DNA of 64,000 nucleotides from Pseudobutyrivibrio ruminis CF1b. Lineage in GTDB: Bacteria > Bacillota > Clostridia > Lachnospirales > Lachnospiraceae. A program made the translations under genes and the position numbers. Of this stretch, positions 49,634 to 54,552 are shown piece after piece. The notes beneath the pieces are model-generated. The model had not been told where the DNA came from. It searched no databases and saw only the letters and a program-made list of their open reading frames with translations. The DNA lies in assembly GCF_000424005.1 (NCBI RefSeq), contig NZ_AUJB01000009.1, forward strand, positions 372,001 to 436,000, given 5' to 3'. Every line of letters begins with the position of its first letter. The first letter of the stretch is position 1.

Positions 49634-49855
49634 ATGAAGACACTTAGAGATATTAAGGTTGGTGGCACAGCAAAGGTTGTGAAGATTAATGGCGAGGGTG
49701 CTATCAAGCGTAGAATAATGGATATGGGTATTACCAAGGGAGTAGAGATTTATGTTCGTAAGATGGCTCCTCTTGGAGATCCAATGGAGATTACTGTCAG
49801 AGGTTATGAGCTTGCATTCCGTAAGGCAGATGCAGAAATGATTATCGTAGAATAG
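49634..49855 (+). CDS. feoA: Ferrous iron transport protein A
   Basis: A 73-residue SH3-like FeoA (RRIMDMGITKGVEIYVRKMAPLGDP, then the FRKADAEMI end). It is thought to assist FeoB. ATG 49634 has AAGGAG at the right distance; the open frame from 49598 has no ribosome-binding site and would overlap operator 2. It is 8 bases before feoB. Confidence 0.95.
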   Translation: MKTLRDIKVGGTAKVVKINGEGAIKRRIMDMGITKGVEIYVRKMAPLGDPMEITVRGYELAFRKADAEMIIVE

Positions 49856-49863
49856 GAGAAAAG

Positions 49864-52011
49864 ATGGGAATTCGTATTGCTTTAGCAGGTAATCCAAACT
49901 GCGGAAAGACAACATTATTCAATGCTCTTACAGGATCTAATCAGTTCGTAGGAAACTGGCCAGGCGTTACTGTAGAGTATAAAGAAGGTACATATATCCA
50001 TGATAAGGATGTAAAGATTGTTGATCTTCCAGGTATTTACTCACTTTCTCCATATACATTAGAGGAAGTAGTTGCCAGAAATTATCTTGTTGATGAAAAA
50101 CCAGAGGCTATTATAAATGTAGTAGATGGTACAAATATTGAGAGAAATCTCTATCTCACAACACAGGTTGTAGAGCTTGGTATTCCAGTTGTTATCGCCA
50201 TCAATATGATGGATGTTGTTGAAAAGAAAGGTGACATCATTTACACTGATGCACTTTCTAAGGAAATCGGTGTACCAGTTATTGAGATTTCAGCTTTAAA
50301 GAATACTGGTATGGAGAAAGTTGTAGCTGCTGCTGTTGAGGTAGCAAAGGAGGCAAAGCCACAGAATCCTAAGCACAACTTTGGCGGAGCTGTGGAGCAT
50401 GCACTTGCTCATATCGAGGAGCTTTGCCTTCATAATCTTGAGGATGAGAATCTTCAGCGTTGGTATTCTATTAAGCTTTTTGAACGTGATGAAAAGATTC
50501 AGGAGAAGCTTGGTCTTTTAGCTGAAACAGTTCATCATATCGAAAAAGATATCACTTCCTGCGAACAGGAAATGGATGATGACTCAGAGTCAATCATCAC
50601 AAATGAGAGATACAATTACATTACTTCTATCATAGATAAATGTGTTTATAAGGCACACAGAGGAATCTCCGTTTCTGATAAGATTGACCACATTGTTACC
50701 CACAGAATTTTTGCTCTTCCAATTTTCGCATTGGTAATGTTCATCGTTTATTACGTGACAGTTACTACTATTGGAACTGCATGTACAGACTGGGTTAATG
50801 AAGGTCTTTTTGGAGATGGATGGAACTGGTTTGGTAATCCTGATAAGTTCCAGCCAGGTATTCCAGTATTGATTGAACAGGCACTTGATGCCATGAACTG
50901 TAATGACATGGTAAAGGCTCTTGTTCTCGACGGAATCGTAGCCGGTGTTGGTGCAGTACTTGGTTTCGTTCCACAGATTTTTGTACTCTTTGCATTCCTT
51001 GCATTTTTAGAGGCATGCGGTTATATGTCACGTGTGGCATTTATCATGGATAGAATCTTCAGAAAGATCGGTCTTTCTGGAAAGTCATTTATTCCTATGC
51101 TTGTCAGCACAGGTTGTGGTGTTCCAGGTATTATGGCATCACGTACCATCGAAAATGACAGAGACCGTAAGATGACAATCATGACTACTACATTTATTCC
51201 ATGTAGTGCAAAGCTTCCATTTATCGCTATGATTGCAGGTGCGATTTTTGGTGGGGCAGCATGGGTTGCTCCAGCAGCATATTTCCTTGGAATTTGTGCA
51301 GTCATTATTTCAGGTTTGATTTTAAAGAAGAGCAGATTGTTTGTTGGTGATGTTTCTCCATTTGTTATGGAGCTTCCGCCTTATCACTGGCCACCAATTG
51401 GCAATGTTCTCCGCAGTATGTGGGAGCGTGGCTGGTCATTCATTAAGAAGGCCGGAACAATCATCTTCCTTTCAACAATTGTTGTATGGTTCCTTACATT
51501 CTTTGGACCTACACCTGATGGATTTAGAATGCTTGAGGATTCTGAGATTGGAATGTCACTTTTAGCAAAGATTGGCGGACTTATTTCATGGATTTTCATT
51601 CCACTTGGATTTGGTCATTGGGAGGCAGCTGTGGCTACTCTGACAGGGCTTGTTGCTAAGGAAAATATCGTAGGTACTCTTGCAATTATCTACGGCGTTT
51701 CAGGAGATACATATCAGAATATCGCAAATGCGTTTTCACCTGCAGCAGGTTTTGCTTTCATGGCATTCAACCTTCTTTGTGCTCCTTGCTTCGCAGCTAT
51801 GGGTGCAATCAAGCGTGAGATGAATAATGCAAAATGGTTCTGGATTGCCGTTGGATATCAGTGCGGATTTGCATGGCTTGTGGCACTTATTATTTATCAG
51901 CTTGGTGAGCTTTTAAATGGCGCAGCATTTGGAATAGGTAGTCTGTGTGGCCTTGCAGCAATCGGAGTTTTGGCTTACTTTGTTGGCAGGAAATCACATA
52001 ATAAAAAATAG
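49864..52011 (+). CDS. feoB: Ferrous iron transport protein B
   Basis: A 715-residue Fe(II) transporter. The N-terminal GTPase has G1 GNPNCGKTTLFN, G3 VDLPGIYSL and G4 INMMDVVEKKGD. The membrane part has two inverted Gate motifs (FVPQIFVLFAFLAFLEACGYMSR, STGCGVPGIMASRTI, PFIAMIAGAIFGG), with the conserved Cys in GCGVPG. The GTPase and the helical spacer (to about 270) precede the channel. AGGAGAAAAG lies just before the ATG. No FeoC is encoded. Confidence 0.96.
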   Translation: MGIRIALAGNPNCGKTTLFNALTGSNQFVGNWPGVTVEYKEGTYIHDKDVKIVDLPGIYSLSPYTLEEVVARNYLVDEKPEAIINVVDGTNIERNLYLTTQVVELGIPVVIAINMMDVVEKKGDIIYTDALSKEIGVPVIEISALKNTGMEKVVAAAVEVAKEAKPQNPKHNFGGAVEHALAHIEELCLHNLEDENLQRWYSIKLFERDEKIQEKLGLLAETVHHIEKDITSCEQEMDDDSESIITNERYNYITSIIDKCVYKAHRGISVSDKIDHIVTHRIFALPIFALVMFIVYYVTVTTIGTACTDWVNEGLFGDGWNWFGNPDKFQPGIPVLIEQALDAMNCNDMVKALVLDGIVAGVGAVLGFVPQIFVLFAFLAFLEACGYMSRVAFIMDRIFRKIGLSGKSFIPMLVSTGCGVPGIMASRTIENDRDRKMTIMTTTFIPCSAKLPFIAMIAGAIFGGAAWVAPAAYFLGICAVIISGLILKKSRLFVGDVSPFVMELPPYHWPPIGNVLRSMWERGWSFIKKAGTIIFLSTIVVWFLTFFGPTPDGFRMLEDSEIGMSLLAKIGGLISWIFIPLGFGHWEAAVATLTGLVAKENIVGTLAIIYGVSGDTYQNIANAFSPAAGFAFMAFNLLCAPCFAAMGAIKREMNNAKWFWIAVGYQCGFAWLVALIIYQLGELLNGAAFGIGSLCGLAAIGVLAYFVGRKSHNKK

Positions 52012-52031
52012 AAAAATAGTAGATTGAAACG

Positions 52032-52065
52032 AACCCCTGGGTCTTTGACAGCCTAGGGGTTTTTG
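52032..52065 (+). terminator. Intrinsic terminator after feoB
   Basis: AACCCCTGGG and CCTAGGGGTT pair around a 10-base loop, then TTTT. The loop contains TTGACA, the -35 box of the next promoter. Confidence 0.9.
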
Positions 52066-52073
52066 AGTATTAT
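52045..52073 (+). promoter_or_regulatory. Promoter of the 52080 GT2 gene inside the feoB terminator
   Basis: TTGACA (52045-52050, consensus) in the loop, 17 bases, TATTAT (52068-52073). The ATG at 52080 starts 6 bases later, so the mRNA should have no leader. Confidence 0.75.
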
Positions 52074-52079
52074 GTCAGT

Positions 52080-53168
52080 ATGAGTGAAGAAATTAAATTT
52101 TCCGTGATAATGCCTACATACGGAGTGGGCGAATATATTGGCGATGCATTAGGCTGTCTCATGATGCAATCCTACGACAATTTTGAGGTTATTATTGTGG
52201 ACGATTGTTCACCTGATAACAGTGCAGATATTGCCCGTAGTTTTATCAATCGTGACGACAGATTTTTGTATATAAAGCATCCTGAAAATCAGGGCGTTTC
52301 AGCTGCAAGAAATACTGGTATCGAACATGCAACGGGAGATTATATTCTCTTTTTGGATCCAGATGATTTGTATGAGAAAAATCTCCTGAGAGTTTGCGCA
52401 GCAGCATTGGAACGAAATCCAGTTGATGTTTTGATTTACAGTCACACGGAAGATTATCGTAATTACGAATCAGGAAAAATCGAGTACATGAAGGCTATCA
52501 CATTAGAGTTGCTGGATTATGATGATGACATGCTTACTACAAATGACCCTGTAACCATTCACAGACTGGCTATGCAGATGGAAGAAATTACCATGCTGGG
52601 CTACCCTTGGAACAAGTGTTACAAGGCAAGTGTAATCAAGGATAACAATCTTAGGTTTCAAAAAATAAAGCATGTTGAAGATATTCTTTTTAACTGCGAT
52701 GTGCTTGATTATACAGAGTCACTTACTATATTAAATGACGTTCTTTATCACTATAGAAACCAGGGGCAGCTTCGTCTGACTGGCGGTGATATTGATGATT
52801 ACTTTGAACTTCAAAAGACACGAGTTAAGAGAATTTTTGACCAGCAGCAGAAGTGGAAGACCTGCGATTTTGAAGCTCTTGGAATTCTGTCAAAGGAATA
52901 TTTTAGAAGCTTCCAATCAGCAATGGTACGTCAGCTGGAGACCAAGACTAAAACAGATGAAATTTTAAAATGGTGTAAGAAAGAGGCTGAGACTGAGTTA
53001 TATCAGGAGATGAGAAAATATCTTCCAGACAGCTCACGCACCATTAAAATGTTGTATAAACCATTGGCTGAAGGCATGTTTGGAACAGCCCTCAAACGCG
53101 CTCGACTCATGGAGTATACAAAGCATTATTTCCCTGGAGTATTTAATAGAGCTAAGCAGTTACGTTAG
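52080..53168 (+). CDS. GT2 family glycosyltransferase, 362 aa
   Basis: A GT-A fold transferase: KFSVIMPTYGVGEYIGDAL at the N-terminus, VIIVDDCSPDNSADIA, GVSAARNTGIEHATGDYILFLDPDDLYE (metal DPDD). The C-terminal third is helical with the RNQGQLRLTGG block. It has its own promoter, so it need not follow the iron genes. No ribosome-binding site is visible, and no other in-frame start keeps the first strand, in line with leaderless translation. Confidence 0.9.
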   Translation: MSEEIKFSVIMPTYGVGEYIGDALGCLMMQSYDNFEVIIVDDCSPDNSADIARSFINRDDRFLYIKHPENQGVSAARNTGIEHATGDYILFLDPDDLYEKNLLRVCAAALERNPVDVLIYSHTEDYRNYESGKIEYMKAITLELLDYDDDMLTTNDPVTIHRLAMQMEEITMLGYPWNKCYKASVIKDNNLRFQKIKHVEDILFNCDVLDYTESLTILNDVLYHYRNQGQLRLTGGDIDDYFELQKTRVKRIFDQQQKWKTCDFEALGILSKEYFRSFQSAMVRQLETKTKTDEILKWCKKEAETELYQEMRKYLPDSSRTIKMLYKPLAEGMFGTALKRARLMEYTKHYFPGVFNRAKQLR

Positions 53169-53223: not shown

Positions 53224-53252
53224 TTGAAAATGTATTATCTCGATGTTATATT
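53224..53252 (+). promoter_or_regulatory. Promoter of the 53416 gene
   Basis: TTGAAA (53224-53229), 17 bases, TATATT (53247-53252); start expected near 53259. Confidence 0.7.
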
Positions 53253-53258
53253 ATTTAA

Positions 53259-53415
53259 CGAATTAGGCAATATCTATTAATTCGGGGACAGGCAATAAGG
53301 GAGACTATAAGAAATTTGGTAAAGTTTTTGTAGAGATTTTAGAGCCATCTATCCATGAATTTATGGATATGATGGCTTTTTATATTTTTTTTATGATTAA
53401 TAAGGAGAATAAGAG
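53259..53415 (+). promoter_or_regulatory. Long leader with internal terminator (attenuator candidate)
   Basis: The leader of about 157 nt contains an intrinsic terminator at 53343-53392 (AGCCATC-T-ATCCAT / ATGGAT-AT-GATGGCT, then TTTT). It lies between promoter and gene, so full-length message needs read-through. The 80 bases before it (TTCGGGGACAGGCAATAAGG and on) match no riboswitch I know. Confidence 0.55.
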
Positions 53416-54552
53416 ATGAAAAGAAAAAAGTTTCTTGCTATGGCACTCGCAATGTCTATGGTAGCAGGGGTAGCTGGTACTACATTAGTATCAATGAACG
53501 TTTCAGCAGCACAGATTCATGATGCATCACAGGTTAACTACGGAACACTTACAGCTAAAGAGCTTGAAATGGTTAATCAGTACTTTGATGCAGAGTTCTA
53601 TGCAGCAAAGTATGAGGATGTTGTTTCTGTTCTTGGAACAGATGCAGACCTTCTTTACAAGCACTTCGTAAATTGCGGTATTTTCGAAGGCAGAGAAGGA
53701 TGGGCTACATACAACGTTGAGGATTTTAAGAGCGTTGTAATCGCTGAGGATGCTAACTTCGTTTCAGTTGAGGTTTACGCAGCTTCAAACCTTATGGGTA
53801 CAACAGATTACTCTACAATCGAGAGAGCAGCTGTTTCAGCTAACGAGAACGGTGCTTCAATCGTTAACACAGATGAGGCTTCATATGTTGTTGCTTCAGC
53901 AGAAGTAGCAGAGGCACTTGCTGAGAACGATCCACACTACGAGAAGATTGGTACACTTAACATCGGCAGAGATGGAGAGTGCTGCATCTTAGTTTACAAG
54001 AAGGACAATGGCTATGCTACAAAGTTCCTCGAGGGTGACTATACTGCAATCTACACAGGTATCTGCGAGACTGTTTCATCTTGCACAGACATCGTAGGAT
54101 TCATTCCTTTCATCGGATATGATGTTGCAGAAGCAAACGCTTTATCTGCATCATACGGCATTGAGACATTTGATGTTGATACAGGTGTTGTAGTTGGTTC
54201 TGAGGGTGCTTACTTTACATTAGATGACAAGATCGAGTACGTAAGACCAGTTGAGTTCGAAGCTCCACACGCTAGAAACATGACAAACTACACTAACAAC
54301 GGATATGAGAACAACGCTTACACTGGCGTAGATGAGAATGCTACAGCAGACACAACATTTGATATCAGTGCTGGTACAGAGGCTGATGAGAATGGTAACG
54401 TAAATGTTACAGCAGTAATCTCAAACGATGAGACAGGCTTTAACTACTCAATCACATACCAGTTCGATGGTAATGTATACAGCTCAGTAGCTGATACAAC
54501 AGCAGATACAGCTGCTACAGAGGCTCCAGCTGAGACTACAGTTGAAGAGTAA
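53416..54552 (+). CDS. Secreted protein with YY..EGR module, 378 aa
   Basis: A signal peptide (about residues 1-32, cut near VSAA) precedes FDAEFYAAKYEDVVSVLG...LLYKHFVNCGIFEGREGWATYN (about 58-100), the same module seen in the VanW protein at 18468. The remaining 270 residues are acidic and beta-rich, with a Thr/Ala-rich C-terminus (DTTADTAATEAPAETTVEE) that looks like a flexible or cell-wall-spanning tail without a sorting signal. I do not recognise the central part. AAGGAG precedes the ATG. It should be abundant and controlled by its leader. Confidence 0.78.
   Translation: MKRKKFLAMALAMSMVAGVAGTTLVSMNVSAAQIHDASQVNYGTLTAKELEMVNQYFDAEFYAAKYEDVVSVLGTDADLLYKHFVNCGIFEGREGWATYNVEDFKSVVIAEDANFVSVEVYAASNLMGTTDYSTIERAAVSANENGASIVNTDEASYVVASAEVAEALAENDPHYEKIGTLNIGRDGECCILVYKKDNGYATKFLEGDYTAIYTGICETVSSCTDIVGFIPFIGYDVAEANALSASYGIETFDVDTGVVVGSEGAYFTLDDKIEYVRPVEFEAPHARNMTNYTNNGYENNAYTGVDENATADTTFDISAGTEADENGNVNVTAVISNDETGFNYSITYQFDGNVYSSVADTTADTAATEAPAETTVEE

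Follow-up and report, generated by a model that had tools for sequence, protein, structure and literature searches.

In Pseudobutyrivibrio ruminis CF1b, a family 2 glycosyltransferase gene that follows feoB is probably transcribed as a leaderless mRNA from its own sigma-A promoter, which overlaps the predicted feo terminator. The leaderless form appears to be fixed across the genus, whereas the hairpin around the -35 element belongs to the level of clades. From the comparative analysis of the sequence, we give this joint reading a probability of roughly 85%. The window analysed here is the whole stretch of 64,000 nt, and the features of the locus are collected in the table. The closest named relative is P. 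xylanivorans DSM 14809, whose glycosyltransferase shows 97% protein identity, and an Rfam search of the locus and its relatives gave no match. In the initial annotation TTGACA had been placed in the terminator loop, 17 bases before a TATTAT that is followed six bases later by the ATG, which is correct to the base; the six bases are GTCAGT. The distance between the two genes, taken there as about 50 bases, is in fact 68 nt on the same strand, as the feoB stop ends at 52011.

Table. Features of the feoB–glycosyltransferase region (window coordinates).
Feature	Position	Strand	Description
feoB	49864..52011	+	715 aa; final gene of the feo operon here; Pfam FeoB_N (1.8e-65), Gate, FeoB_Cyto, FeoB_C
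Intrinsic terminator (predicted)	52031..52064	+	12-bp stem 52031-52042/52051-52062; 8-nt loop 52043-52050; U-tract 52060-52064
-35 element TTGACA	52045..52050	+	6/6 consensus; within the terminator loop
T-tract of the promoter spacer, also the terminator U-tract	52060..52066	+	
-10 element TATTAT	52068..52073	+	5/6 consensus
Predicted transcription start (+1), A of the ATG	52080 (range 52079-52081)	+	Inferred from the position of the -10
Family 2 glycosyltransferase (GT2), predicted leaderless gene	52080..53168	+	362 aa; Pfam PF00535 (3.1e-38)

The putative promoter matches the consensus at 11 of 12 positions and is the top-scoring site of the 5 kb. This match alone is not beyond chance in 64 kb: counting both strands, the window holds five sites of at least 11/12, against 2.05 expected and a maximum of 6 in 20 random runs. 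The case for a promoter comes instead from comparison. A search of 29 genomes provided 27 orthologs whose 5' regions could be read, counting the own copy, and in every one of them a TANNNT hexamer ends 6-7 nt before the ATG (26 at 5/6, one at 4/6). Shuffled upstream sequences carry such a box at that position with a frequency of 4.7% per sequence, and the conserved placement in 27/27 orthologs exceeds chance. Upstream of about -39/-40 the weighted column information is close to background, and the -35 (T at -35 in 95%), the T-tract, the -10, the T at -1 and the ATG stand out with high values. Within the spacer, T is found at -17 in 100% and at -16 in 90% of the weighted orthologs, including those that have no hairpin. 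No second conserved promoter was found in the 60 nt upstream of the ATG among the orthologs.

The promoter letters also vary in a concerted manner. A perfect TTGACA is present in five of the 27 orthologs (own genome, G027, G019, G012 and G021; L001-L004 and L009). The extended -10 (TGn) is missing in the window and in the other perfect-TTGACA orthologs, and it accompanies a weaker -35 in the remaining 22. Such compensation is expected where selection acts on promoter strength; since the orthologs are related and do not constitute independent samples, we attach no P-value to the trade-off. In G019 (L003) the nearest upstream gene is divergent, which means that the glycosyltransferase has to have its own promoter; the hairpin has decayed there. 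Taken by its elements, the predicted promoter is of the ordinary sigma-A type. One could object that it is a chance match whose conservation reflects shared descent only, given that 11/12 matches are no rarity in a window of 64 kb and that the relatives share their history. We consider this very unlikely, as the sequence beyond -40 has diverged to background while the -35, T-tract, -10, T at -1 and ATG were kept, and as individual letters vary while promoter quality is preserved.

Translation would have to start without a Shine-Dalgarno (SD) sequence. The anti-SD duplex energy at the glycosyltransferase is -2.2 kcal/mol compared to a genome median of -8.0, a weakness shared by only 4.7% of the genes in the genome, and the earlier statement that a ribosome-binding site is lacking is borne out. 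None of the 27 orthologs has a convincing SD. A single ortholog scores -9.0 kcal/mol, probably L007, where a GGGGG almost abuts the ATG at a spacing too short for it to act as an SD. The ATG is invariant in 27/27 orthologs, and the first T of the -10 lies 12 nt upstream of it here and 12-13 nt upstream in all of them. From the ATG onward codons vary mostly synonymously (I5 as ATT/ATA/ATC, K6 as AAA/AAG, S8 with four codons), and upstream of it the frame varies freely, with a TGA two codons before the ATG in 10 orthologs. A T precedes the ATG in 26 of the 27, which fits the pyrimidine-purine start motif common to all species mapped by Cappable-seq (PMC4782308). Together, the -10 position, the invariant ATG, the missing SD, the pyrimidine at -1, the compensation between -35 and extended -10 and the coding constraint from the ATG strongly support a leaderless mRNA. 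The proposal of the initial annotation that transcription starts at the A of the ATG thus finds strong support in the 27-ortholog comparison.

Two other ways to begin translation are hard to reconcile with these data. An in-frame GTG at 52104 and an in-frame ATG at 52110 would each permit a true start farther downstream, behind a leader of about 24-30 nt. The first of these codons (codon 9) is a GTG in only 13/27 orthologs and the second (codon 11) an ATG in only 19/27; both lie inside the GT2 domain, which Pfam recognizes from residue 8, and coding constraint already acts on codons 1-8, making such a start exceedingly improbable. A mini-ORF, ATG-TCA-GTA-TGA (52072-52083), overlaps the start, but start-stop reinitiation from it is equally remote. 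The mini-ORF exists in the window and, differing by one codon, in G027 and G019. However, its ATG at 52072 belongs to the -10 region, most orthologs (G012, for example) lack this ATG, and no SD precedes the mini-ORF. A start at the ATT of codon 5, the position at which the outgroup proteins begin, was also considered and rejected, as ATT, ATA and ATC interchange there and no SD is kept.

Family-wide searches retrieved homologs with 36-45% identity in a few other genera. Five of these outgroup loci (L139, L145, L141, L142 and L146) have good SDs of -6.4 to -9.3 kcal/mol, and their starts lie directly before the KFS motif, or a few codons earlier in L141. Read by eye, all of them except L146 show a -10-like box about 20-35 nt farther upstream. 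In L140, by contrast, the homolog and the end of a carbamate kinase gene overlap. As the outgroup genera are SD-led, the leaderless form appears to be derived. Most simply, Pseudobutyrivibrio would have lost the SD, shortened its leader and acquired the N-terminal MSEEI, which presumes that the leader letters are homologous over such a distance. The leaderless promoter would then be a fixed trait of Pseudobutyrivibrio that arose from an SD-led ancestor. At L027/L030 (G001, Butyrivibrio fibrisolvens 16/4) frame changes and stops disrupt the ortholog, and the 5' leaderless promoter is kept.

The hairpin that encloses the -35 has a different history. In the window it spans 52031-52062, GAACCCCTGGGT(CTTTGACA)GCCTAGGGGTTT, with a folding energy of -19.6 kcal/mol, and the folding of the 99-nt region beats 199 of 200 shuffles (z -2.75). 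TTGACA occupies six of the eight loop bases. A 12-bp GC-rich stem that begins 20 nt past the feoB stop and is followed by TTTTT is what is predicted of an intrinsic terminator. A strong hairpin whose loop holds the -35 is present in the own genome and in G027, G012 and G021. G004 has one separately, and this distribution needs at least two changes on the tree. Within the first of these clades 7 of 8 pairs changed on both sides with pairing kept, more than in 500 shuffles, in a small set of six aligned sequences.

The gene upstream changes as well. Carbamate kinase lies directly upstream in G027 (L002), with no feoAB between and a second terminator preceding the hairpin; in G012 the hairpin is kept next to a gene that is not feoB. 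In G001, like in G019, the nearest upstream gene runs the opposite way and the hairpin has decayed, and in others, G028 and G020 among them, a separate terminator sits upstream of the promoter. In about half of the orthologs overall, feoB either is missing or is not the immediate upstream neighbour, and several orthologs have a divergent gene closest upstream. A small Cys-rich FeoB-associated gene lies between feoB and the terminator in L006, L009 and L017 and is missing here (window 49634-52011). The conservation of the T-tract even where there is no hairpin, together with gain and loss of the hairpin, suggests that the terminator was built on the T-tract of the promoter; the hairpin seems to behave as a terminator that comes and goes. 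Thus the description of the promoter as concealed within the feoB terminator is right for this genome but does not name the central feature, as elsewhere the promoter is conserved without the hairpin. The hairpin persists in G027 and G012 without an adjacent feoB. Across the genome, terminator hairpins are not enriched in -35 boxes (9 of 152 same-strand regions versus 8.1 expected from permuted hexamers). A general class of promoters in terminator loops was accordingly rejected as a rule. By its distribution, the promoter-terminator overlap is a lineage-specific feature of what looks like a genus-wide leaderless gene.

Expression of the glycosyltransferase could come mainly from feo read-through, giving a leadered SD-less mRNA translated with the help of S1 and a U-rich tract, the promoter-like letters being secondary. 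The shared strand, the short gap and a conserved T-tract 16-20 nt before the ATG would suit this reading. However, a terminator of -19.6 kcal/mol stands between the two genes, the -10, its spacing and the ATG persist where feoB is missing or non-adjacent or the upstream gene is divergent, and a trade-off between -35 and extended -10 would be meaningless for such a leader; we regard read-through as the main source as improbable. It could still add a leadered glycosyltransferase transcript, on which initiation assisted by S1 at the conserved U-rich tract (-20 to -16) would be conceivable in principle.

We therefore return to the overlapping promoter and the leaderless mRNA. Feo transcripts would end at the intrinsic terminator in the gap, and a promoter that takes its -35 from the terminator loop and has its -10 right behind the U-tract would give rise to a separate glycosyltransferase mRNA. 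From promoter geometry, we infer that the 5' end of this mRNA lies at the A of the ATG or no more than one base to either side. Having neither leader nor SD, it would be translated from its 5'-terminal AUG like other leaderless mRNAs. The hairpin around the -35 could be understood as a clade-level economy of space, whereby an upstream gene that reads inward can have its terminator placed on the T-tract of the promoter. A further, improbable extension has feo polymerases pausing and terminating within the promoter and hindering its use, such that iron starvation, with its high feo transcription, would lower a surface-glycan enzyme whose leaderless mRNA would also be translated by a separate, 70S-type route.

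An arrangement in which the end signal of an operon and the start signal of the next unit share DNA is known from E. coli frd-ampC, where the ampC attenuator follows its promoter. The locus resembles it in that the end signal of feo and the start signal of the glycosyltransferase share DNA, and differs in having the -35 in the terminator loop, the -10 after the U-tract and no remaining leader. Among open-licence papers we found no direct precedent for terminator-embedded -35 boxes.

Leaderless genes of this type have been described before. Zheng et al. 2011 defined 'TA-led' leaderless genes by a Pribnow-like TANNNT about 12 bp before the start codon and no SD, and predicted them in 56 of 209 Firmicutes genomes, with a mean of 4.2% in those genomes (PMC3160421). 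The glycosyltransferase agrees with this definition, the first T of its -10 lying exactly 12 nt upstream and an SD being absent. Unlike the Firmicutes predictions, its leaderless form appears genus-wide and changed from SD-led ancestors. In Clostridium phytofermentans, a member of the Lachnospiraceae, potentially leaderless starts make up about 4% of intergenic sense starts, and for the most part the genes concerned retain an RBS and are also served by a further start upstream (PMC5171806). Leaderless transcripts amount to 2-3% in solventogenic clostridia (PMC9045289), and 15 leaderless genes are reported in C. difficile (PMC7438776). With 2-4% of transcripts or fewer, these start-site maps agree with the expectation of the initial annotation that leaderless genes are uncommon in Clostridia. 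The low frequency is shared, whereas the glycosyltransferase, in contrast to most of the C. phytofermentans genes, shows neither an RBS nor, in the 60 nt upstream, another conserved promoter.

The analysis of the own genome covered the first 1.25 Mb, in stretches, and then 0.40 Mb more. Some 1.25 Mb contain 209 SD-less genes, and in 10 of these a promoter-like site precedes the first start by 4-8 nt; 5-nt bins at 10-34 nt hold 0-2 each, and permuted motifs average 1.8 with a maximum of 6. From this excess, about 1% of the genes in this genome may be leaderless. One of these, mnmL/ytqA (TIGR01212, radical SAM tRNA modification; L167-L192, own copy G000:C1:451819-452718, minus strand), is a second conserved candidate. 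Most members of the genus have a TATNAT/TAAAAT box there, 6 nt ahead of an ATG that lacks an SD, while some (G018, G020) appear SD-led. In a surface-polysaccharide region of G000:C10, two further glycosyltransferase-like genes (about 98974-99903, plus strand, and 100943-103042, minus strand) carry TATAAT 5-6 nt ahead of an ATG without an SD, and leaderless starts may thus be commoner among such genes here.

A strict consensus pattern applied across the genus was rejected as a detector, as most matches are not leaderless genes. Its two commonest families are the promoters of rpsL (L035, L043, L044, L046; own G000:C3:185088) and rpsT (L038, L049, L053, L058, L059; own C1:665354), where the ATG close to the start site looks like a coincidence. 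In both, ATG-CGN-stop lies 8 nt past the -10 upstream of an SD-led gene. This Met-Arg-stop, kept across most of the genus, is possibly a two-codon leaderless mini-ORF, or it may have arisen by chance within a conserved leader; Rfam gave no match for these leaders. Downstream of the glycosyltransferase, a secreted 378-aa gene at 53416, with no Pfam or NCBIfam match, lies behind a promoter-like site (53224-53252) and an approximately 155-nt leader (window 53224-53415). This leader ends in a strong terminator-like hairpin just before the SD and is a possible attenuator; it has no Rfam match above the cut-off, and among the fetched loci the motif occurs only in the own genome.

The glycosyltransferase thus seems to be a well-supported leaderless gene of a known kind that is unusually conserved for a family in which leaderless mRNAs are reported to be rare and usually backed by another start site. 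It offers a clear case of a switch from SD-led to apparently leaderless between neighbouring genera of the Lachnospiraceae, the leaderless form being predicted in all 27 orthologs checked, and the locus illustrates how a T-tract can be common to a terminator and a promoter. The case is testable in Pseudobutyrivibrio, a culturable rumen genus.
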